Positions 41,322 to 53,800 of a DNA stretch of 64,000 nucleotides are shown one piece after another. The stretch covers positions 372,001 through 436,000 of the forward strand of contig CAKZKD010000002.1 of assembly GCA_937121175.1 (NCBI GenBank), written 5' to 3'. Position numbers and translations under genes: made by a program. Below the pieces are notes generated by a model. That model did no database searches. It was not told the DNA's origin and saw only the letters and a program-made list of their open reading frames with translations. Each line of letters begins with the position of its first letter. Position 1 is the stretch's first letter. This stretch comes from an uncultured Flavobacteriales bacterium. Its GTDB lineage: Bacteria; Bacteroidota; Bacteroidia; Flavobacteriales_G; Salibacteraceae.

Positions 41322-43094
41322 TTGAAAACAACAATTTTTTATTTCTTATGCTCAATGCTACTGGTATTGAATGTAAGCGCAACTAACTATTCAACTTCTT
41401 CCGGAGGTTCGTTTGCTGGTGCGGCAAATTGGGTGTCTAACAGCAAGCCAGGTAATTTTTGGAGTGCTGGAGATACCGTGTTCGTAAACCACGCAATGAC
41501 TTTAAACAGTAACTTGGGTTTTGCGGGGGGTCTAATTGTAAACTCGGGAGGTTCTATAACTGGAACGAACAGAAACATTCAGTTGAATAACGGAGCTAGT
41601 GCCTTTTTTGATGGTCCAATTGATATTCAGAATTTGAGCTTAAATTCTACCTCATCTGTTGATGCAACAGCGACTATCGAAGCTCAGGATTTAAGCATTC
41701 AAAACAATTCAACCTTTAGTACAAATTCTCCGATAGATCTTTCGGATGATTTCACAAATAACGGGGGGAGTTTTACTTCAACTTCAACCATGAACGTTAA
41801 TGATCAATTTCAACTCAATAACAGTGGTTCATTTTCAATTACCGGTGCAATTACTGTTGGAGACGATATGGTGCTTAATTCTGGAACTACTGCAACGTTC
41901 GGAAGTACTGTAAATGTAACTGATAAGATAACGCTAAGTGGTGGCACGGCAACATTTAATGGAGCTACAAGTGCTGGAGGAGACGTCACTTTTAACAGTA
42001 ATAGCACAGCCAATATTAATTCAACTTTTACGGGCGGAAACAACATTACCCTCAACGGCGGAGCTGTGAATGTTGCTGCTACCGGTACCTTAGAAGCCAA
42101 TGCAGATATTACCGTAAATGGAAGTTCCACCTTGTCGAATGCAGGAACTGTTGACGCGGGCGATGATTTTGTACTGAATGGAGGCTCGGTGGCTAACACA
42201 GGGAATATTTTTGCGGCTGACGATATTACCCAAAACGGTGGTTCTACATTAGTAAACGATGCTCCAGGAAGAATTGAAGCAGGTGACGACTATACACATA
42301 ACGGAGGCACGCTGACTAACAACCATCACATGGTAGTAGGGGATCGGCTGACCGTAAATGGGGGAGCTACACACAATGGAAATGGGCTGTTACAGGTTGA
42401 ACGTATTCAAAACAATGGAAATATTGGCGGTAGCTTGGATATTTGCTCAAATGATGGTAATAACCCTACTTTTTCAGGAAGCGGTAATTATTCAGGTTCG
42501 GTTACGTTTTGTGAAAACGCAGCGGCATTTCCTTTACCCGTTGAACTCATACTTTTTGAAGCAACAATTATAGAAAATGAAGAGGTTCAAGTACAATGGG
42601 AAACGGCCTCTGAACTGAACAACGATTATTTTGTGTTGAGTAAATCCTTAGATGGTGGAAAGAGCTTTATTGAACTGCCAATCATTTATGGAGCGGGTAC
42701 AACTAATGAAAAACAGCAGTACGAATTTCTTGATTTGAATATTGAGTCTGGGACGATATACTATCAATTGAAGCAAGTAGATTTTAATGGCGAAGAAACA
42801 ACGTTGGATATCATACAACTGGAGAATGAAGAATTGTCGGATACTGAGACGGAAGTAAAAACAAAAATTTATCCTAACCCTTTTACTTCTGATATAGAAG
42901 TCGTTACGTCTAAGATTACTAGCCGAGTTAAACTTCTTCAATTGGACGGCTCTGAGGTATTGAGTTTTGAAAATGAAACACCATTGTTCAACCAGATTTA
43001 TTCTATTCCTTCCGATGTTCCAAGGGGGCTTTACCTTCTCGTAGTTGTTTCTTTGGATGGGCAAACGGAAATACACAAAGTTTCGAAGCAGTAG
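41322..43094 (+). CDS. Repeat-rich beta-helix-like secreted protein with T9SS sorting domain
   Basis: 590 residues with a TTG start, chosen because it gives a complete signal peptide (about 1-20) and lies just after a good promoter. Residues about 85-360 are imperfect repeats of about 20-24 residues with a 'DDxxxNGGSxxNxGxxxA' rhythm ('GDDFVLNGGSVANTGNIFA', 'GDDYTHNGGTLTNNHHMVVG'), suggesting a right-handed parallel beta-helix. A fibronectin-like part (about 400-500; 'VQWETASELNNDYFVLSKS') and a type IX sorting domain (about 515-590; 'YPNPFTSDIEVV') follow. A surface adhesin or matrix protein is likely but unproven. Confidence 0.85.
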   Translation: MKTTIFYFLCSMLLVLNVSATNYSTSSGGSFAGAANWVSNSKPGNFWSAGDTVFVNHAMTLNSNLGFAGGLIVNSGGSITGTNRNIQLNNGASAFFDGPIDIQNLSLNSTSSVDATATIEAQDLSIQNNSTFSTNSPIDLSDDFTNNGGSFTSTSTMNVNDQFQLNNSGSFSITGAITVGDDMVLNSGTTATFGSTVNVTDKITLSGGTATFNGATSAGGDVTFNSNSTANINSTFTGGNNITLNGGAVNVAATGTLEANADITVNGSSTLSNAGTVDAGDDFVLNGGSVANTGNIFAADDITQNGGSTLVNDAPGRIEAGDDYTHNGGTLTNNHHMVVGDRLTVNGGATHNGNGLLQVERIQNNGNIGGSLDICSNDGNNPTFSGSGNYSGSVTFCENAAAFPLPVELILFEATIIENEEVQVQWETASELNNDYFVLSKSLDGGKSFIELPIIYGAGTTNEKQQYEFLDLNIESGTIYYQLKQVDFNGEETTLDIIQLENEELSDTETEVKTKIYPNPFTSDIEVVTSKITSRVKLLQLDGSEVLSFENETPLFNQIYSIPSDVPRGLYLLVVVSLDGQTEIHKVSKQ

Positions 43095-44190: not shown

Positions 44191-46077
44191 ATGATCCGCG
44201 CTTTAGTATCTCTCGTAATTTTCTTTTCACCTTTTATTTCCACATTTGCCCAATCCCCAGACCTTTTTAGCTACCAAGCCGTAGTTCGCGATAATGCTGG
44301 AAATGTGTTAGCTAGCAGCTCTGTGTCGCTTCGATTTAGCATTCTACAAACTACCGCAACAGGTAGTGCCCAATATGTGGAAACCCACAACCCCACCACA
44401 GATGCCAATGGGTTGGTTTCTCTTATGATTGGTGGCGGAACGGTTTCTTCCGGAACTTTTGCAGCAATTGATTGGGCAAACGATAAGTTCTTTTTAAAGG
44501 TAGAACTGGACCCAGCAGGTGGAAGTTCATACTCCAGCATGGGAACTACGCAATTGATTTCTGTACCGTATGCGAAACATGCGGAGACGGCGATGAGAGC
44601 AATAAACGACTCAGTGAAAGATGCAGATGCAGATTCTACCAACGAGTTGCAGACGTTGAGTATTTCCAACGATACCATTTTCTTGAGCAACGGTGGATTT
44701 GCAGTGATTCCAGATAGTAGTTTGTTGGGGGTAAAAAAAGGTGGAAGTGGCATTGGTGCAGGAGGGTCGGCAGATTTGAAAGATTTTGATAATAACTTTC
44801 AAGAAGTAAGCCGAATTGGTTCTGGATTTAAAATAACGTCCATTGAAGCCGACCTTAATAATAACTTGTTTGTCTTTGGTAGTTTCAAATCGAGTATGGT
44901 TATTGGAGGACAAACAATTACGGGGCAAAATGCTGATGGTTACAATGTTTTTATTGCAAAATTTGATAGCAGTTTAAACATGCAATGGGTAAAAAATTCG
45001 CAGTCAACTAATGTGGTTGAGCAGGGTTATTTCGATTCTTTTACAATAGATGGACTAGGAAATTCTTATTTGATTTTTAACGTATACGGGGCAAGCTTTA
45101 ATTGGGATGGATCAAGCATTCCAATTTCGACTAATAAGAGAACGGCATTCATATTAAAAATTTCAGCAACTGGCTCTTTAGTCTGGAATGTAGAGTTCAA
45201 AGCCCTTAATAGTAGTGTACCTAAAAGAAAACATTTGACAGTCAATTCGAGTTTTGACGTTTTTGTTACAGGGGCTTTTTCTTCAGTTAAAGTGTTAAAT
45301 GATTCTCTTATAGTTTCTGGATACCCTAATATTCGATATGGCCTGTTCAAAATAGCCGCCAACGGACAATCGGCTCAACTGTTAGATTCCGCCATTAATG
45401 TTGAAGGAAAAGGGCTGGCATTTGACAATTCAGGAAATTTACTAGTTCTGACATCTAGTAATACAAGTATAGCTAGGTTTACTTCTAGCTCAATAACTAC
45501 GTCTAGAAATGGTTTATTGTTAAAGTATAATTCATCAAATTCGATTGTTTCGTCAAACAATGATTTTGATGTTAATAACAGAGGAAACTCAAATACAGCA
45601 CCGACCGTCCTAAAGGTATTTGGTAATGAAATTTTTATTGGTAATTCTAATTATGATTTCTGGATAGACTCTGATTTTTATTCATCCGGTCAAACGTCTT
45701 ACTTCATTCAATTGAATTCTTCAATGAGTCTTGTTAACCATAGTGTTACTAAAGTATCTGGTTCAGCAATTTTTTTAGGAATGATGAAAAAGCAAAATGG
45801 TGAATTTCGAACCGGGCTAGGTTTGAACGGAAGTATTGTGATTAATGATAAAAATCGAACCCCTCTTTGTGGTCAAGCCACTGGTGCCAGTGCTATTTTG
45901 AGTTACGACAATACCTTAGTACAAACTAGCGGTAAAATTCTAGACCTCTTTGAACTCACTCGCGGAATGCACGTAACAGGTCAAGTCAATACTGTTTTTG
46001 GAGCATCTGAAATCACAGGTAACTTCTACAACAAAGGAACAAAGTACACGCCAGGCGTTTATCTATTTAAAGAATAA
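44191..46077 (+). CDS. Array protein A: conserved N-module, repeat linker, beta-propeller-like body
   Basis: 628 residues from 'MIRALVSLVIFF', which gives a proper signal peptide; an in-frame ATG at 44119 is less likely. After the signal comes the shared module (about 22-145; 'SPDLFSYQAVVRDNAGNVL', 'ISVPYAKHAETAMRA'), as in Bacteroidota tail-fibre-like and FISUMP proteins. A linker has one 'NELQTLSISNDTIFLSNGG' unit and 'IPDSSLLGVKKGGSG'. The body has SBBP-like propeller repeats ('FIAKFDSSLNMQWVKN') and the shared end 'FYNKGTKYTPGVYLFKE'. Probably a surface adhesin. TTGACC at 44140 and TATTTTTC at 44165 could be its promoter. Confidence 0.82.
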   Translation: MIRALVSLVIFFSPFISTFAQSPDLFSYQAVVRDNAGNVLASSSVSLRFSILQTTATGSAQYVETHNPTTDANGLVSLMIGGGTVSSGTFAAIDWANDKFFLKVELDPAGGSSYSSMGTTQLISVPYAKHAETAMRAINDSVKDADADSTNELQTLSISNDTIFLSNGGFAVIPDSSLLGVKKGGSGIGAGGSADLKDFDNNFQEVSRIGSGFKITSIEADLNNNLFVFGSFKSSMVIGGQTITGQNADGYNVFIAKFDSSLNMQWVKNSQSTNVVEQGYFDSFTIDGLGNSYLIFNVYGASFNWDGSSIPISTNKRTAFILKISATGSLVWNVEFKALNSSVPKRKHLTVNSSFDVFVTGAFSSVKVLNDSLIVSGYPNIRYGLFKIAANGQSAQLLDSAINVEGKGLAFDNSGNLLVLTSSNTSIARFTSSSITTSRNGLLLKYNSSNSIVSSNNDFDVNNRGNSNTAPTVLKVFGNEIFIGNSNYDFWIDSDFYSSGQTSYFIQLNSSMSLVNHSVTKVSGSAIFLGMMKKQNGEFRTGLGLNGSIVINDKNRTPLCGQATGASAILSYDNTLVQTSGKILDLFELTRGMHVTGQVNTVFGASEITGNFYNKGTKYTPGVYLFKE

Positions 46078-46083
46078 AGAATT

Positions 46084-47991
46084 ATGAAAAACATACTACT
46101 TCTAGCGATAGTATCGCTGCTCACTTTTAACACATTCGCCCAATCACCTGACCTCTTTAGCTACCAGGCTGTGGTAAGAGATAATGCAGGAAATGTGGTT
46201 GTAAACCAAGTAGTTTCTGTAAGATTTAGCATTCTGCAAACTACCGCAACAGGCTCGGCTCAATACGTTGAAACACACAGCCCAACAACAGACGCCAACG
46301 GGTTGGTTTCCTTAATGATTGGCGGTGGAACAGTTACCTCAGGAACCTTTTTAGGTATCGATTGGGCAACCGATAAGTACTTTCTTAAAGTAGAATTAGA
46401 CCCAGCAGGTGGTAGTTCGTATTCGAATATGGGGACTACTCAATTGATTTCGGTGCCGTATGCGAAGCATGCTGAGACAGCGATGCGTTCGATAAATGAC
46501 TTCGACACTGATTCAACAAACGAGCTTCAGGCTTTGAGAAAGTCAGGTGATACCATTTTCCTATCAAATGGAGGTTTTGTGGAACTACCAAACAACCTAG
46601 ATAATGATTCCGCTAACGAACTACAAACTCTCAGCATTTCTAACGATACCATTTTCTTGAGTAATGGTGGATTCGCCATAATTCCAGATAGTAGTTTGTT
46701 GGGGGTTAGAAAAGGCGGAAGTGGCCTTGGCTTGGGGGGGTCATTAAAATTGAATCAATTTGATAATGACTTTGATGGCCTTGTTCGTATTGGCGACCAA
46801 GTTGATATTTATGAGACCCATGCTGATGGTCAGAAAAATGTTTTTATTTCTGGTTATGCCAATGCAGGACAAAAAATAGGAACAACAGTAGTTACTAATA
46901 CAAGAGGACCCTTTTTAGCCAAATTGGATAGCAATGGAGCCCTTCAATGGGTTCAGTCTTCATCGCTTTCTTATGCTAGAATATCTTTTGTGGTTGACAA
47001 TTCTGGAAATAGTTACATGGCATTAACTGGAGCCGCTAGTTCGGTAGATTGGAATGGAACAACGTACAACTTTACAATTACAGATCAGAAAGGGGTCATT
47101 TTAAAACTAAGCCCAACTGGAAGTGTACTTTGGAATTCAGGTTGGGGAGTTGGCGGCTTTCTAAATGATAGGATACAATTAGCGGTCACAAACTCTTCAG
47201 AGCTATTATTTTCGACCGCATTTTCAGGTGTAAGTGCAGTAGGAAATACGACCGTTACCTTTAAAAACGGAAGAAACTTTGGCCTTTTCAAGATTTCATC
47301 TTCCGGTGCCAGCGCTTCACTTGTTGACAGTTGTGAAAATGCTGTTCCAAGAGAAATTGCAGTTGATAATTCAGGAAATTACTATGCTTTAACCTTCATG
47401 TTCGGAGGAACATCAAGTAGCAGACAATTCAAGACAAGAAATATAACCACATCCGGTAGAACCATTTTGTTGAAATACAACAGTTCCGCCTCGATAACTA
47501 ATTTCAGTTCCGATATTCCATTTCAGGACAGGAACGGGACAAATAGTTTACTCAAGCATGATGGAACTAGTCTGTATGTTGGTGGTGTCGGTTTTGGAAG
47601 CGGAGGTTACCCATTCGTGCTTAAAATGAACAGTACGTTGAACATAACAGATACGGCAATTTTAGAAACTGTCAGTGACGGGTTTATGTGGTCTCTTGCC
47701 CTTAAATCTAATGGCGAGGTGGTTACTGGTAATCAAACCGAAGGTCCTTATTTAGTGAACGATGAAAGTTTTGCACCGTTATCCTCAACTGGTAAATATG
47801 CTGCATTGATGGCAAAATATTCAAACGCACTTCAGATAACAGACCATAAACTGCTCAAATTATTCAACCAAGTAGAAGGGTTTCGCGTTACCAGCTCTGG
47901 GAACACAGCATTTTGTTTTGCAACGATTCCGGGAAATTTCTACAACAAAGGCACCAAATACACTCCAGGTGTTTATCTATTTAAAGAATAA
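46084..47991 (+). CDS. Array protein B: same N-module, two linker units, diverged body
   Basis: 635 residues. Signal peptide to about 19, then the shared module and two linker units ('NELQALRKSGDTIFLSNGG', 'NELQTLSISNDTIFLSNGG') before 'IPDSSLLGVRKGGSG'. The body is SBBP-like ('FLAKLDSNGALQWVQ'), clearly diverged from protein A, and ends with the same 'FYNKGTKYTPGVYLFKE'. It starts 6 bp (AGAATT) after gene A. Confidence 0.82.
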   Translation: MKNILLLAIVSLLTFNTFAQSPDLFSYQAVVRDNAGNVVVNQVVSVRFSILQTTATGSAQYVETHSPTTDANGLVSLMIGGGTVTSGTFLGIDWATDKYFLKVELDPAGGSSYSNMGTTQLISVPYAKHAETAMRSINDFDTDSTNELQALRKSGDTIFLSNGGFVELPNNLDNDSANELQTLSISNDTIFLSNGGFAIIPDSSLLGVRKGGSGLGLGGSLKLNQFDNDFDGLVRIGDQVDIYETHADGQKNVFISGYANAGQKIGTTVVTNTRGPFLAKLDSNGALQWVQSSSLSYARISFVVDNSGNSYMALTGAASSVDWNGTTYNFTITDQKGVILKLSPTGSVLWNSGWGVGGFLNDRIQLAVTNSSELLFSTAFSGVSAVGNTTVTFKNGRNFGLFKISSSGASASLVDSCENAVPREIAVDNSGNYYALTFMFGGTSSSRQFKTRNITTSGRTILLKYNSSASITNFSSDIPFQDRNGTNSLLKHDGTSLYVGGVGFGSGGYPFVLKMNSTLNITDTAILETVSDGFMWSLALKSNGEVVTGNQTEGPYLVNDESFAPLSSTGKYAALMAKYSNALQITDHKLLKLFNQVEGFRVTSSGNTAFCFATIPGNFYNKGTKYTPGVYLFKE

Positions 47992-48318
47992 AGAATTATG
48001 AAAAACACATTACTACTCACGATAATATCGCTGCTCACTTTTAGCACTTTCGCTCAATCCCCAGACCTCTTCAGCTACCAAGCTGTGGTAAGGGATAATG
48101 CAGGAAATGTTGTAGCAAGCAGTGCAGTTTCGTTGCGGTTTAGCATTCTGCAAACCACAGCTACTGGAACAGCTCAGTACGTAGAAACTCACAATCCAAC
48201 TACCGATGCCAACGGACTGGTTTCTATTATGATTGGTGGCGGAACAGTTTCTTCAGGAACATTTGCCAGTATTGATTGGGCAAATGATAAGTACTTTCTG
48301 AAAGTAGAATTGGACCCA
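47971..48318 (+). repeat. 348-bp exact direct repeat, copy 1 (start of array gene C)
   Basis: Identical base for base to 51085-51432. It begins in the last codons of gene B, includes the AGAATT spacer and the ATG at 47998, and ends inside the shared N-module. The start codon is at the same offset (27 bp) in both copies, so recombination would keep the frame. Confidence 0.97.
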
Positions 48319-49041
48319 ACTGGTGGAAGTTCATTTTCCAATATGGGTATAACCCAGTTGATTTCTGTGCCTTATGCTAAGCATGCGCAAACTGCGGATA
48401 CAATCAATAAGCCAATTGCCGAAAAAGACCCAATATTTTTGGGGTCGATTGCCAGTAAAATTTCTTCAGCGGATACTACTCTTTGGAACAATAAACAAGA
48501 TCAATTAGTTGCAGGAAATAATATCAGCATTGTAGGGAACACAATAAACGCGTCAAATGCTTCTTGGGGTAGTTCTACAAATAAATTCTACTTAGGGCAG
48601 GATACTTTAGGGGGAATTGTTTTTTACACCTATTTGGATAAAAATGGAAACCAGCACGGTCTTGTTGTAAACAAAACTGACAGTAGCGCACAATGGCAGT
48701 CTATTGGGTCAATAACTAATGCAAAACGTAGTTGGGATGGAACTTATAACACAAGCCTAATGACGGGCAGCCCAGCGGCAAATTATGTGAAAGGTTTAAC
48801 CGATGGGGGATTCACCGATTGGTATTTACCCTCAATTGATGAACTAGCTATTTTATGGCACAATTTCTTTCACGTAAACAAAGCTTTGTATTTAAGTAAT
48901 TCCAAGGAGTTATCTCATGCAGATCCATACTGGAGTAGCTCGGAACACAACGCAACGAATGCTTGGTTCTTCGCTACAGGAGTAGCTAACCTTAGGGGAA
49001 AAACAAGTACCAATCGAGTGCGGGCAGTTCGTGCTTTTTAA
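47998..49041 (+). CDS. Array protein C: shared N-module joined to a FISUMP/DUF1566-type C-domain
   Basis: 347 residues. Signal peptide and N-module are as in the neighbours (the N-terminus is identical to that of protein E). The middle and tail are unrelated: a C-terminal domain with 'LGGIVFYTYLDKNGNQHGLVV', 'GFTDWYLPSIDELAILW', 'YWSSSE' and 'RVRAVRAF', the pattern of the DUF1566/Lcl or FISUMP fold, a ligand-binding lectin-like domain. The 'TPGVYLFKE' end is missing. So the array contains two body types behind one leader. Likely surface-exposed. Confidence 0.82.
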   Translation: MKNTLLLTIISLLTFSTFAQSPDLFSYQAVVRDNAGNVVASSAVSLRFSILQTTATGTAQYVETHNPTTDANGLVSIMIGGGTVSSGTFASIDWANDKYFLKVELDPTGGSSFSNMGITQLISVPYAKHAQTADTINKPIAEKDPIFLGSIASKISSADTTLWNNKQDQLVAGNNISIVGNTINASNASWGSSTNKFYLGQDTLGGIVFYTYLDKNGNQHGLVVNKTDSSAQWQSIGSITNAKRSWDGTYNTSLMTGSPAANYVKGLTDGGFTDWYLPSIDELAILWHNFFHVNKALYLSNSKELSHADPYWSSSEHNATNAWFFATGVANLRGKTSTNRVRAVRAF

Positions 49042-49107
49042 CTACAACTAAATTATTATTAAAAACATATTTAATTCATCAAAATAAAAATTTCAAAATC
49101 ACTAACA

Positions 49108-51105
49108 TTGAAAAAGTTAATCACAACATGTGTTGCGTTCGTAATTGTTTCATTCACATTTGCCCAATCACCTGACCTCTTCAGCTACCAAGCCGTAGTT
49201 CGAGACAATGCCGGAAATGCAGTAGCTAGTAGCTCTGTGTCGCTTCGGTTTAGCATTCTGCAAACAACAGCTACTGGAATAGCTCAGTACGTAGAAACTC
49301 ACAACCCCACCACAGATGCCAATGGATTGGTTTCTTTAATGATTGGCGGTGGAACAGTTACCTCAGGAACGTTTGCCAGTATTGATTGGGCAAACGATAA
49401 GTTCTTCTTAAAAGTAGAACTAGACCCAGCAGGTGGTAGTTCGTATTCCAATATGGGAACGACGCAGTTGATTTCGGTGCCTTATGCGAAGCATGCAGAG
49501 ACTTCGATGAGGGCTATCAATGATTCAATTTATGATGGAGACTCTAGTCGTACCAATGAATTACAAGCCTTATCAAAATCTGGTGACACTATATTCTTAT
49601 CAAACGGTGGTTTTGTTCAAATTCCACCAAATTGGGATAGTGATTCCACCAATGAATTGCAGCAGTTGAGCATATCGAACGATACTATCTACCTAAGTAA
49701 GGGTGGTTTTGCGGTAATCCCAGACAGTAGTTTGTTAGGGGTAAAAAAAGGGGGCAGTGGAGCAGGTGCAGGCGGAAGCGCCGACTTATCAGACTTTTCA
49801 AGTAGTTTTAAGGAGGTATATAAGCTTGGGGAAGACTTTAGCGTCATCGAAATCAAGGTTGACCAGAATAAAAATGTTTTTGTATTCGGATACTTTTCTG
49901 GAGAAAGTACCATTGGAGCGACCACAGTAACAACTAATAACTCTGGTACAGACGTCTTACTTGCAAAATTTGATAGCAGCGGTGTTTTATTGTGGGAAAA
50001 GCACAGTACGAATGGAGATGCAAATGTGAACGAATTTGTATCCCGACTTGAGCTTAGTGGAAGTGATGCTTATGTATCATACTGGCGTTGGAATCGTCAG
50101 CAAACTGCGTTGAATTTTGGAGGCATTAATCATACAAATACTGATTCTAATAATGTGCAGATAATAAAAGTAAATGGTTCAGGAACAGTGCAATGGGCGA
50201 CAGGTATGTACTGTCTATTGGTTGGTACAAATGGAAGTATAAACACTTTTGGTTCTAATTTAAGGGGAATAGGCGCCAATGCCGCAGGTGAGGTGTTTTA
50301 TTCGGGGACTTTTAAGGAAATTCTGGTTTCAGGAAATACATCTCTGCAATTGGGTAGCGGCTCAAATTATTTAGTTTTCGGTAAGATTTCAAGTAATGGA
50401 CAAACTCACACTATTATAGATACTGCAAAAAGTTGTAATGGAGGGGATTTAATCGTTGATCAATCTGGAAATCCAATCCTTATTGGCTCTGGAGCAAGTA
50501 ATGTGAATATAGGCAATACAAATCGAACACTAACTTTTAGGGGTTTTCTAGTCAGGTATAGTCCTAGCGGAACCGTTCTCAACTTTTCGAACGAACTTGA
50601 TTATTCGCCAATCAATGGGATAATTTACCAAGGTCAGTTAGAAGCTAATTCAACTAACGTGTATTTAACTGGTGTAATGGATGGAGGACGTATTGGTAAT
50701 CTATATAGTATTCCTGGAGCACCTTATTCACTTGTTTCTTTTCTAGTTCAGTTTAATAACTCCCTTGCCCTGCAGAGAATAACTGATATCAGATATAACG
50801 AAGCTCAAAGCGCGAATGTGAGCGTGGATGGAACAGGAGGAGTATTATGGGGTGTTACTGAGAAAGACTCGTACATATTAAATGATAAAATTTATTATAC
50901 CGTTGGTGGAAGCTCCGGAACAGCAGCAAGCATGAATTCCTCGTTGACCACTACCGAGGTTAAGAGTTTAAATACGTTTGGATTTGCAGAGGGACTTTAT
51001 GTTGGCTCTTCAGGTGGAACTAATTTTTTCGTCGGAACGTGTAATGCCAATTTCTACAATAAAGGCGCAAAATATACCTCGGGAGTTTATCTATTTAAAG
51101 AATAA
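49108..51105 (+). CDS. Array protein D: mosaic N-module, two linker units, propeller-like body
   Basis: 665 residues with a TTG start ('MKKLITTCVAFVIVSFTFAQ'), the only sensible signal-peptide start in frame; it follows a 66-bp AT-rich gap. The signal peptide differs from B, C and E, but the N-module is shared and its DNA is a patchwork of the A, B and C/E versions. Two linker units ('NELQALSKSGDTIFLSNGG', 'NELQQLSISNDTIYLSKGG') and the 'IPDSSLLGVKKGGSG' hinge precede an SBBP-like body ('LLAKFDSSGVLLWEKHS'). The end is a variant of the shared tail ('FYNKGAKYTSGVYLFKE'). Confidence 0.82.
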   Translation: MKKLITTCVAFVIVSFTFAQSPDLFSYQAVVRDNAGNAVASSSVSLRFSILQTTATGIAQYVETHNPTTDANGLVSLMIGGGTVTSGTFASIDWANDKFFLKVELDPAGGSSYSNMGTTQLISVPYAKHAETSMRAINDSIYDGDSSRTNELQALSKSGDTIFLSNGGFVQIPPNWDSDSTNELQQLSISNDTIYLSKGGFAVIPDSSLLGVKKGGSGAGAGGSADLSDFSSSFKEVYKLGEDFSVIEIKVDQNKNVFVFGYFSGESTIGATTVTTNNSGTDVLLAKFDSSGVLLWEKHSTNGDANVNEFVSRLELSGSDAYVSYWRWNRQQTALNFGGINHTNTDSNNVQIIKVNGSGTVQWATGMYCLLVGTNGSINTFGSNLRGIGANAAGEVFYSGTFKEILVSGNTSLQLGSGSNYLVFGKISSNGQTHTIIDTAKSCNGGDLIVDQSGNPILIGSGASNVNIGNTNRTLTFRGFLVRYSPSGTVLNFSNELDYSPINGIIYQGQLEANSTNVYLTGVMDGGRIGNLYSIPGAPYSLVSFLVQFNNSLALQRITDIRYNEAQSANVSVDGTGGVLWGVTEKDSYILNDKIYYTVGGSSGTAASMNSSLTTTEVKSLNTFGFAEGLYVGSSGGTNFFVGTCNANFYNKGAKYTSGVYLFKE

Positions 51106-51432
51106 AGAATTATGAAAAACACATTACTACTCACGATAATATCGCTGCTCACTTTTAGCACTTTCGCTCAATCCCCAGACCTCTTCAGCTACCAAGCTGT
51201 GGTAAGGGATAATGCAGGAAATGTTGTAGCAAGCAGTGCAGTTTCGTTGCGGTTTAGCATTCTGCAAACCACAGCTACTGGAACAGCTCAGTACGTAGAA
51301 ACTCACAATCCAACTACCGATGCCAACGGACTGGTTTCTATTATGATTGGTGGCGGAACAGTTTCTTCAGGAACATTTGCCAGTATTGATTGGGCAAATG
51401 ATAAGTACTTTCTGAAAGTAGAATTGGACCCA
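51085..51432 (+). repeat. 348-bp exact direct repeat, copy 2 (start of array gene E)
   Basis: Identical to 47971-48318; see that entry. The 3114-bp distance between the copies contains most of gene C and all of gene D. Confidence 0.97.
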
Positions 51433-52959
51433 GCAGGTGGAAGTTCGTATTCTAATATGGGAACAACTCAGCTGATCTCCGTGCCGTATGCGAAGCATGC
51501 TCAAACCGCCGATAGTGCCATTACTGAAAAACAAGTACTTCGAATATCAAACGACACAATTTACCTTTCGAGAGGCGGAGGGTTTGTAGTAATTCCAGAT
51601 AGTAGTTTGTTGGGGGTAAAAAAAGGTGGAAGTGGAGTTGGTGCAGGAGGTTCAGCAGATTTGAAAGATTTTGATAACAATTGTAGGGCGCTCGCACGCC
51701 TGGGTTCAGGCTTTGATATCAAGGGATTTGATTCGGACGGTAGCGGAAACATGTACATTTTGGGGACATTTACTACGGCATTTGAATTTGGAGGAACAAA
51801 TTATCAAGCGACAACCCTTCGACAAAACAACGTTTTCTTAGCAAAGGTGGATAGTAATTTTAGCACGCAATGGGTAAAACATTCGAATGATGGATATGCA
51901 TCAAGTGCAAATTCAGTTCATTCCATTGTTGTAGATCAATTGGGTAATATCGTTTTGAGTATAAGAATCCAAAGTGGAAAGAGTACTTTTAATTGGGATG
52001 GAAATGTAATCAGTTTAAATGGGAGTTCCAGTGCTTTGCATGGATTGTTACTTCGAATTAACTCAAATGGTAGCTATATCTGGAATAAAGCGATTTATCC
52101 AGCTAGTGGGTATAAGTATTTAACGGAATTTACACCTAGTCAAGAAGTATTAGTCACTGGTAACTTTTTTGGCAAAACATTTATTGGAACAGATTCTGTT
52201 CAGTTTGGTAATAGCAACAAGCATTATGGCTTATTCAAAATATCGAGCAATGGTTCAAGCGCACAATTACTTGATTCAGCTACTGGAACAATTAGCTCTG
52301 GTATTGCGGTAGATGCTTCCGGCAATACTTTCGTTTCTTTATTTAATGCTTTTGGTACGCTGAACTTCATTTCAAAAAGTATAACACCCAGTAAATCAGG
52401 TTTAATTTTAAAATATAATTCATCAAATTCTATCGTAAATGAAATCAGTGATTTTGAGGAAGAAGGTGATTCAAGACTTGGTGGAAGAAAATTGGAATTC
52501 GAAAGAGGCACTCTAGTTTACGCATCTCGAAATTATCGATTTTTTATTGGTAACACATTCTATTCAAGCGGAGGAAGTCCGTTCGTAATAAAATACAACA
52601 GTTCTCTAATACAACAGAATCATTTTGTCCTTGGAATTACCAATGGAGGGGTTGCTCTGGGTGTGCACATAAAACCAAATGGAGAATTAGTTTTGGGTAG
52701 CGGTATTTCTGGAAATTACATAATTGACGATGTGAGTTATACCCCACTAGGCGGCAGTAGTGCTTCAGCTAGTTTGCTATTGACTTTGGATAATAATTTG
52801 AAAGTCGTCAATCGTGTTCCTCTACAACAGTTTTTAGATGCATCTGGTTTTTATGTTTCGGGCTCTGGAATCACTACTTTTTTCGCGAGTGATGTAGCTG
52901 GCTCATTCTACAACAAAAGCACAAAATACACTCCTGGAGTTTACCTATTTAAAGATTAA
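51112..52959 (+). CDS. Array protein E: N-module identical to C, propeller-like body
   Basis: 615 residues, starting 6 bp after gene D. The first about 107 codons are identical in DNA to gene C. One shortened linker unit ('LRISNDTIYLSRGGGFVVI') and 'IPDSSLLGVKKGGSG' lead to the SBBP-like body ('FLAKVDSNFSTQWVKHS'), with 'ADLKDFDNN' also found in protein A. It ends 'FYNKSTKYTPGVYLFKD'. Probably a secreted surface protein; it lacks a T9SS sorting domain. Confidence 0.82.
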   Translation: MKNTLLLTIISLLTFSTFAQSPDLFSYQAVVRDNAGNVVASSAVSLRFSILQTTATGTAQYVETHNPTTDANGLVSIMIGGGTVSSGTFASIDWANDKYFLKVELDPAGGSSYSNMGTTQLISVPYAKHAQTADSAITEKQVLRISNDTIYLSRGGGFVVIPDSSLLGVKKGGSGVGAGGSADLKDFDNNCRALARLGSGFDIKGFDSDGSGNMYILGTFTTAFEFGGTNYQATTLRQNNVFLAKVDSNFSTQWVKHSNDGYASSANSVHSIVVDQLGNIVLSIRIQSGKSTFNWDGNVISLNGSSSALHGLLLRINSNGSYIWNKAIYPASGYKYLTEFTPSQEVLVTGNFFGKTFIGTDSVQFGNSNKHYGLFKISSNGSSAQLLDSATGTISSGIAVDASGNTFVSLFNAFGTLNFISKSITPSKSGLILKYNSSNSIVNEISDFEEEGDSRLGGRKLEFERGTLVYASRNYRFFIGNTFYSSGGSPFVIKYNSSLIQQNHFVLGITNGGVALGVHIKPNGELVLGSGISGNYIIDDVSYTPLGGSSASASLLLTLDNNLKVVNRVPLQQFLDASGFYVSGSGITTFFASDVAGSFYNKSTKYTPGVYLFKD

Positions 52960-52964
52960 AAATT

Positions 52965-53450
52965 ATGAAAAAGACAATAATAATCGTTACTGCTTGTGTT
53001 CTAGGAACATTGGTCAATGCACAATCATTATCACCCGTTGCCATAGGAAGTGGGTACGTAAACGGAAGTTCTTCAGACGCTGAAATTAGTTCCACAGTTG
53101 GGCAAACAGCCTATGGAGTTAAAGAAGATGGAACCAGCCAATTAACCGAAGGCGTTCATCAACCCAAAGTTGAAATATTAAACGTGGAGGATAATGCCCC
53201 TGAAATAGGAATGGCTATTTATCCAAACCCGAACTCCGGTCGGTTTTATTTTGAACTTACCAATTTGGAAGGTAAGGTCTATAATGGTGAATTGTTTGAT
53301 GTAAATGGAGTTTCAATAGAAAAAACGCAGGTTTCGGAAGAAACCAAATCCATAGATATTTCTGGTTTGCCTAGAGGTTCGTATTTCTTGCACGTTTATG
53401 GAGATGATGGCGTTTCTATGAAGCAATACAAGGTGATGAAGGTGCATTAA
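52965..53450 (+). CDS. Small T9SS-sorted protein closing the array (F)
   Basis: 161 residues. Signal peptide (1-19), a short domain ('SPVAIGSGYVNGSSSDAEIS', 'VGQTAYGV', 'LTEGVHQPK') of a type common in Bacteroidota T9SS proteins, and a type IX sorting domain (about 85-161; 'YPNPNSGRFYFEL', 'GSYFLHVYGDDG'). It starts 5 bp after gene E with a variant of the array junction, so it is co-transcribed. It might be a secreted partner of the array proteins. Confidence 0.82.
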   Translation: MKKTIIIVTACVLGTLVNAQSLSPVAIGSGYVNGSSSDAEISSTVGQTAYGVKEDGTSQLTEGVHQPKVEILNVEDNAPEIGMAIYPNPNSGRFYFELTNLEGKVYNGELFDVNGVSIEKTQVSEETKSIDISGLPRGSYFLHVYGDDGVSMKQYKVMKVH

Positions 53451-53469
53451 AACACTTTGTTTTCTTCCT

Positions 53470-53633
53470 GTCATTCCGGAATCGAAAAAGAACAAAACGA
53501 GGTAGGAGTTTTTGTGAATTAGATATCCGGAATCTAGATAAATCAGTTGCTTTCGAATCTGGAACGAGATTCCGTATAGAAGTTTCACTTCAACCTCCTT
53601 CGTCGGCTGGCTCAACTAATATTACGGAATGAC
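53470..53633. mobile_element. MITE-like element with inverted ends
   Basis: A 164-bp stretch begins GTCATTCCGGAAT and ends ATTACGGAATGAC, which are inverted repeats with one mismatch. Inside are further palindromic pieces around TCCGGAATCTAG. No coding capacity. Such elements occur between genes in many Bacteroidota; without other copies in view I cannot show mobility. Confidence 0.5.
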
Positions 53634-53678
53634 GATTGGGGTCGAGTAAAGAATTCTCTCTAGTTATTCACGTAGCCT

Positions 53679-53723
53679 GTCCGTTAGAGTGCTGCGAGGA
53701 ACGAGCGGTATATCGAGAACTAC
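53679..53723 (+). repeat. Dispersed hairpin repeat, copy 2
   Basis: GTCCGTTAGAGTGCTGCGAG..GAGCGGTATATCGAGAACTAC. Its ends match copies 1 and 3 (GTC..TT.GAGTG and TATCGA.AAC). Same orientation as the other copies. Confidence 0.6.
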
Positions 53724-53746
53724 AACTTTTAACTACCCAGAATGCT

Positions 53747-53800
53747 GTCAGTTTGAGTGATTCAATTTCCGGAAAAGGAAATTGAATTGTATCGAAAACA
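53747..53800 (+). repeat. Dispersed hairpin repeat, copy 3
   Basis: GTCAGTTTGAGTG, then a perfect 11-bp stem ATTCAATTTCC (53760-53770) / GGAAATTGAAT (53777-53787), then TGTATCGAAAACA. It lies just after copy 2; the stem could also end transcription from the array. Confidence 0.65.

Follow-up and report, generated by a model that had tools for sequence, protein, structure and literature searches.

Gene content and setting of the array

The window analysed here is a stretch of 64,000 nucleotides from an uncultured Flavobacteriales bacterium. Five consecutive genes, A to E, occupy positions 44191–52959 on the + strand, which bears out the number and order given in a preliminary description of this DNA. 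The stretch that description had drawn as far as 53450, however, also takes in a sixth + strand gene, F (52965–53450), which follows directly and lacks the N-terminal module (N-module) of the other five. Gene A (44191–46077) encodes a signal peptide, an N-module resembling the Bdello_MAT_N domain, one stalk unit and a beta-propeller body. Gene B (46084–47991) has the N-module, two stalk units and a propeller, while gene C (47998–49041) joins the N-module to an Lcl_C tip. Gene D (49108–51105) starts at a TTG codon and encodes its own signal peptide, the N-module, two stalk units and a divergent propeller. Gene E (51112–52959) consists of the N-module and a propeller. The 161-amino acid product of gene F comprises a signal peptide, a head of about 50 residues and a T9SS type A C-terminal sorting domain, the T9SS being a system specific to Bacteroidota. 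This sorting domain scores 47.3 bits (cut-off 27) and 42.2 bits (cut-off 23) in F with PF18962/TIGR04183, and no match to it was found in A to E.

The N-module spans about 110 residues and is 85–97% identical at the amino acid level among the five proteins. The earlier view that the whole leader is almost unchanged applies to this module and not to the signal peptide, which is present in each of A to E and differs in A and D. The joints A/B (46051–46083; the end of A, its stop codon and AGAATT), B/C (47965–47997) and D/E (51079–51111) are repeated as had been described, being identical from GTTTATCTATTTAAAGAATAAAGAATT into ATGAAAAACA. Because the signal peptides of A and D are different and neither gene is preceded by a joint, the array can be read as two blocks, A-B-C and D-E-F, with a gap of 66 nt between C and D. 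The Bacteroidota promoter motif TTG...TANNTTTG had no match at A or D. The last 17 residues had been held to be common to four of the genes; these are A, B, D and E (76–100%), with full identity in A/B only. Gene C does not have them because they form the last propeller strands. The conserved joint is thus also explained as a last propeller strand together with the start region of the following gene.

The bodies are less disparate than first supposed. That of C is unrelated to the others, whereas those of A, B, D and E are homologous propellers, with 24–36% identity in the propeller parts and 33–43% when the stalk is included. The body of C had been assigned to a FISUMP/DUF1566-type domain, of which the former DUF1566, now Lcl_C (PF07603), is upheld at 40.8 bits against a cut-off of 34.9, and FISUMP (PF09603) has no match anywhere in the genome. 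Lcl_C is also found in the Legionella collagen-like adhesin Lcl. Gene C resembles that adhesin in carrying the domain above the Pfam cut-off; it differs in having no collagen-like stalk and in falling far below the cut-off of the Lcl model NF046116. Collagen-like stalks are frequent in relatives sharing the base type of the array. The stalk unit of the array measures 32 residues (96 nt) and occurs twice in B (46510–46675) and twice in D (49546–49711). Such tandem units are a possible way to vary stalk length.

An AlphaFold2 model of the gene E product as a monomer places a confident N-module at residues 21–122, a low-confidence stalk at 124–184 and a confident propeller at 188–615. Residues 193–615 of this model superpose on the propeller of CylK (PDB 7ron) with a Z score of 33.3 and an rmsd of 3.1 over 358 residues, at 16% sequence identity. 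The likeness to the CylK, SBBP and NHL-type beta-propellers lies in the predicted fold and implies no enzymatic role for E. The SBBP propeller lipoprotein model NF047494 scores 37–47 bits in A, B and E, below its full-length cut-off of 400; the predicted fold of these bodies is nonetheless that of a propeller. Among the nearest free-standing propeller relatives checked, none carries an N-module, and a T9SS sorting domain is present in six of eight.

The array is missing at the syntenic site in all three congeners, where the flanking genes are conserved; in G002, the SLC13 transporter and the CAAX protease that flank it in the window lie less than 20 nt apart. It was either gained in its own lineage or lost in the congeners, and its GC content does not mark it as foreign. 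Upstream, another T9SS-tailed surface-type gene (41322–43094) is without a match at the corresponding site of the three congeners. Its flanks, a DNA methyltransferase and the CAAX protease, are adjacent in G001 and G003, so the stretch may be an insertion hotspot. The intergenic region after F (53452–53763) contains interspersed repeats of about 65–70 nt, with copies 78–88% identical at eight further sites in the genome.

Selection and recombination in base and body

Across nine of the ten gene pairs, the N-module shows a dN of 0.03–0.10 at a dS of about 1–2, with synonymous sites near saturation. The propellers reach a dN of 0.74–1.0 at a dS similar to that of the N-module or higher. With synonymous sites so worn, the conserved ends are mostly attributable to selection on the protein, and these nine pairs point to an old duplication followed by purifying selection on the N-module. 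Taken over the whole array, both recombination and selection appear to have shaped the conserved ends.

The tenth pair is C and E. These genes share an exact match of 348 nt that begins 27 nt ahead of the start codon and ends at nucleotide 320 of the gene, covering the joint and most of the N-module. Neither this tract nor the 96-nt stalk repeat had been noticed in the preliminary description. One copy (47971–48318, + strand) runs from the end of B through the joint into the first 320 nt of C, and the other (51085–51432, + strand) from the end of D through the joint into the first 320 nt of E. Outside the tract the identity drops to about 80%, as in other pairs, and then vanishes at the end of the N-module, with no detectable similarity between the two bodies. 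In 20,000 simulated trials at 82% identity, the longest identical run was 72 nt, which places the tract far beyond chance. It is best read as the trace of a recent exchange, by conversion or crossover. If the assembly was made from short reads, the tract could be slightly idealised.

The tip of C has its closest relative in a gene of G006, a member of another genus, with 59% amino acid identity against 42% for the next best. The two tips fall in one clade (support 96/94). The G006 gene carries an N-module that shares only 53% identity with that of C and belongs to another supported group, outside the clade formed by the N-modules of the array (100/97). Since the G006 tip is close and the G006 base lies elsewhere, the tip and base of C have different histories, and C is a chimera. 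The trees of A, B, D and E also disagree, with A joining D in the base and E in the body. As the AU values are borderline (0.036–0.076), this conflict is only suggestive.

The pattern recurs in other Bacteroidota. A set of 79 N-module loci from public genomes, together with regions of relatives, contained 22 other loci with at least two N-module genes, and N-module genes were present in 38 of the 41 relatives searched. The tandem array had been thought to look new; tandem N-module genes are evidently not peculiar to this locus. At five loci, the base shows far less synonymous divergence at identical residues than the body does (Fisher p of 4e-12 for L071, 1e-12 for L060, 2e-8 for L069, 2e-6 for L090 and 5e-6 for L110; these values are uncorrected, all five pass a Bonferroni threshold for about 30 tests, and L069 and L071 come from the same MAG). 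A further locus, L089, repeats the C/E pattern, with bases 94% identical (pS 0.14) and bodies without similarity. A general synonymous constraint at the 5′ end is an unlikely cause, because about a dozen older control pairs show equal synonymous divergence in base and body. The signature of recombination between base and body is present in at least six other tandem loci of Bacteroidota.

Exchange is episodic and not frequent everywhere, as the body evolves with the base at three syntenic single-gene N-module loci of the congeners, where one C-terminus differs. In two close congeners, the N-module genes at syntenic positions (L145:5362–6906 and L146:4777–7113) have different C-terminal ends and lengths of 515 and 779 codons, which may reflect a frameshift, a truncation or a change of tip. 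In the genus of the window, G001 and G002 share a 913-nt block made up of an F-like gene and an N-module (L143:12523–13435, L144:12391–13303). The two copies are 95.4% identical, above the background identity of 72–88% at the nadD locus, and stand at non-syntenic sites with unrelated surroundings and different bodies. The base may have been transferred here as one unit.

The candidate partner gene and related systems

Proteins resembling F are about 165 amino acids long and share a head of about 50 residues with the pattern GG..GS.SYS.GQV.Y...GS..QGVQQ..EI. In F itself, the head (residues 19–63) is modelled with a pLDDT below 50, and no fold is claimed for it. What is new here is the position of these genes as near-constant neighbours of N-module genes. 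Among the matches listed for 41 genomes, 68 of the 75 short full-length F-like genes adjoin an N-module gene, found with a query that is a consensus of F-like genes drawn from N-module loci. Within the same matches, 62 lie directly upstream of the N-module gene, six lie downstream and seven have none nearby. Fewer than one such neighbour would be expected by chance, as estimated from 115 N-modules spread over about 150 Mb. In the genome of the window, an F-like neighbour is present at all six N-module loci. This near-constant association singles out F as a possible partner or anchor of the base, and F may accordingly act as its partner at the cell surface. No paper on the pairing of the N-module with F was found in the freely accessible literature, and a PHROGs search gave weak or nameless matches only.

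The Bdello_MAT_N model (NF053851) matches all 27 N-modules tested, with a best E value of 2e-12; the proteins of the window score 35–43 bits, below the NCBI cut-off of 60. In Bdellovibrio bacteriovorus, the mosaic adhesive trimer (MAT) fibres have a conserved base and varied tips, among them a C-type-lectin tip, and their authors have proposed “tip swapping” (PMC10769870). The main text of that paper gives no genetic trace of such swapping and leaves open which surface element holds the base (PMC10769870). The genes of the array resemble the MAT fibres in having a Sec signal, a conserved N-terminal base domain, a stalk and varied tips (PMC10769870). Several tips are likewise found on one base type in this genome: the array itself has propeller and Lcl_C tips, and five further N-module genes, whose bases are at most 53% identical, have other bodies. 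The array differs in its MAT_N score below the family cut-off, its tandem, operon-like layout, its link to a T9SS protein and its propeller tips, which are unmentioned in the main text on MAT fibres (PMC10769870). It also differs in offering a direct sequence trace of recombination between base and tip.

A precedent within Bacteroidota is Porphyromonas gingivalis, in which surface-protein domains are rearranged and alleles exchanged by homologous recombination and gene conversion (PMC5266723). The organism of the window would likewise be a member of this phylum that diversifies surface proteins by recombination, although the proteins differ and the exchange is described between strains in P. 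gingivalis and lies within one tandem array here (PMC5266723).

Origin and significance of the array

The locus is probably a tandem array of MAT-like surface fibre genes, with a docked base, diverging tips and occasional recombination of the base. Each of the five genes would provide a common base, a stalk of modest length and a tip open to exchange, and the small gene for the T9SS-sorted putative partner F would complete the row. The array probably grew by tandem duplication, with the base held near-fixed by selection, presumably because it docks on the same cell-surface partner, and the tips left free to diverge. Occasional homologous recombination between bases, by gene conversion or unequal crossing over, would then set one base before another tip. 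The 348-nt C/E tract would be the latest such event, and C the product of a reassortment of base and tip. The homology of the genes, the pattern of selection, the C/E tract, the chimeric nature of C, the recurrence at other loci and the linkage of F are directly shown. We infer a location at the cell surface, the formation of trimers, a part in adhesion and docking on F; a direction for the C/E exchange would have the same standing.

A history of tandem duplication alone, with the base under strong purifying selection, the tips under relaxed or diversifying selection and no further recombination, is unlikely as a complete account. It does explain A, B, D and E, whose pattern by itself requires no recombination, with base and body both close to synonymous saturation and a body dN about ten times that of the base. 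It cannot give 348 identical nucleotides on unrelated bodies, and is already contradicted for C/E; nor can it place the tip of C with a gene of a different base, or produce a low pS in the base beside a higher pS in the body at other loci. That the C/E tract is instead a collapsed repeat of a draft assembly is extremely improbable, even though the assembly comprises 39 contigs and a typical short read is shorter than 348 nt. A collapse requires near-identity beforehand, and the alternative linear pairing of the flanks would close C-D into a circle of its own. The comparable pairs at L071, L089 and L090 are inexact, with a pS of 0.12–0.14; they are therefore not collapses, and the idealisation that short reads could introduce does not explain them.

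The preliminary description went further and proposed a cassette system in which bodies are exchanged to vary the cell surface. Recombination between base and body is retained from this proposal, on the evidence of the C/E tract, the chimeric C and the other arrays; a dedicated switching system is not. Programmed switching, in which the joints serve as homology arms and the displayed body changes at appreciable frequency within a culture, would agree with the conserved ends and the recent exchange, and recombination between the two 348-nt direct repeats, which lie 3114 nt from each other, could remove C and D to leave A-B-E-F in frame. It is very unlikely all the same. No silent copies of the base, the tract, the propeller or the Lcl_C tip occur elsewhere in the genome as assembled, and a Pfam scan of 20 neighbouring proteins (21–63 kb, small ORFs left out) revealed no recombinase or invertase. 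Neither a dedicated recombination site nor a promoter-switch layout was seen, and most bases of the array are down to about 80% nucleotide identity. Since all the genes are intact and close together, nothing needs to be moved for expression. With neither silent cassettes nor a nearby recombinase nor a dedicated site, the tips would be shuffled slowly, over evolutionary time, rather than by a programmed switch.

Under the preferred reading of MAT-like fibre genes with occasionally recombining bases, this locus and at least six others of its kind hold genetic traces of tip swapping, in the form of near-identical bases on divergent or unrelated tips. A broader proposal, which we hold tentatively and rate as less likely than not, is that F-type proteins serve across Bacteroidota as surface anchors, delivered by the T9SS, for fibres of the MAT_N type, and that F and the N-module together make up a portable base that acquires unrelated tips through homologous recombination. 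If true, the F-type anchor would supply, in a different phylum, the surface partner left open by the work on Bdellovibrio MAT fibres. N-module genes are widespread in Bacteroidota, and for this phylum gene F offers a concrete candidate, open to testing, for the partner of the base.
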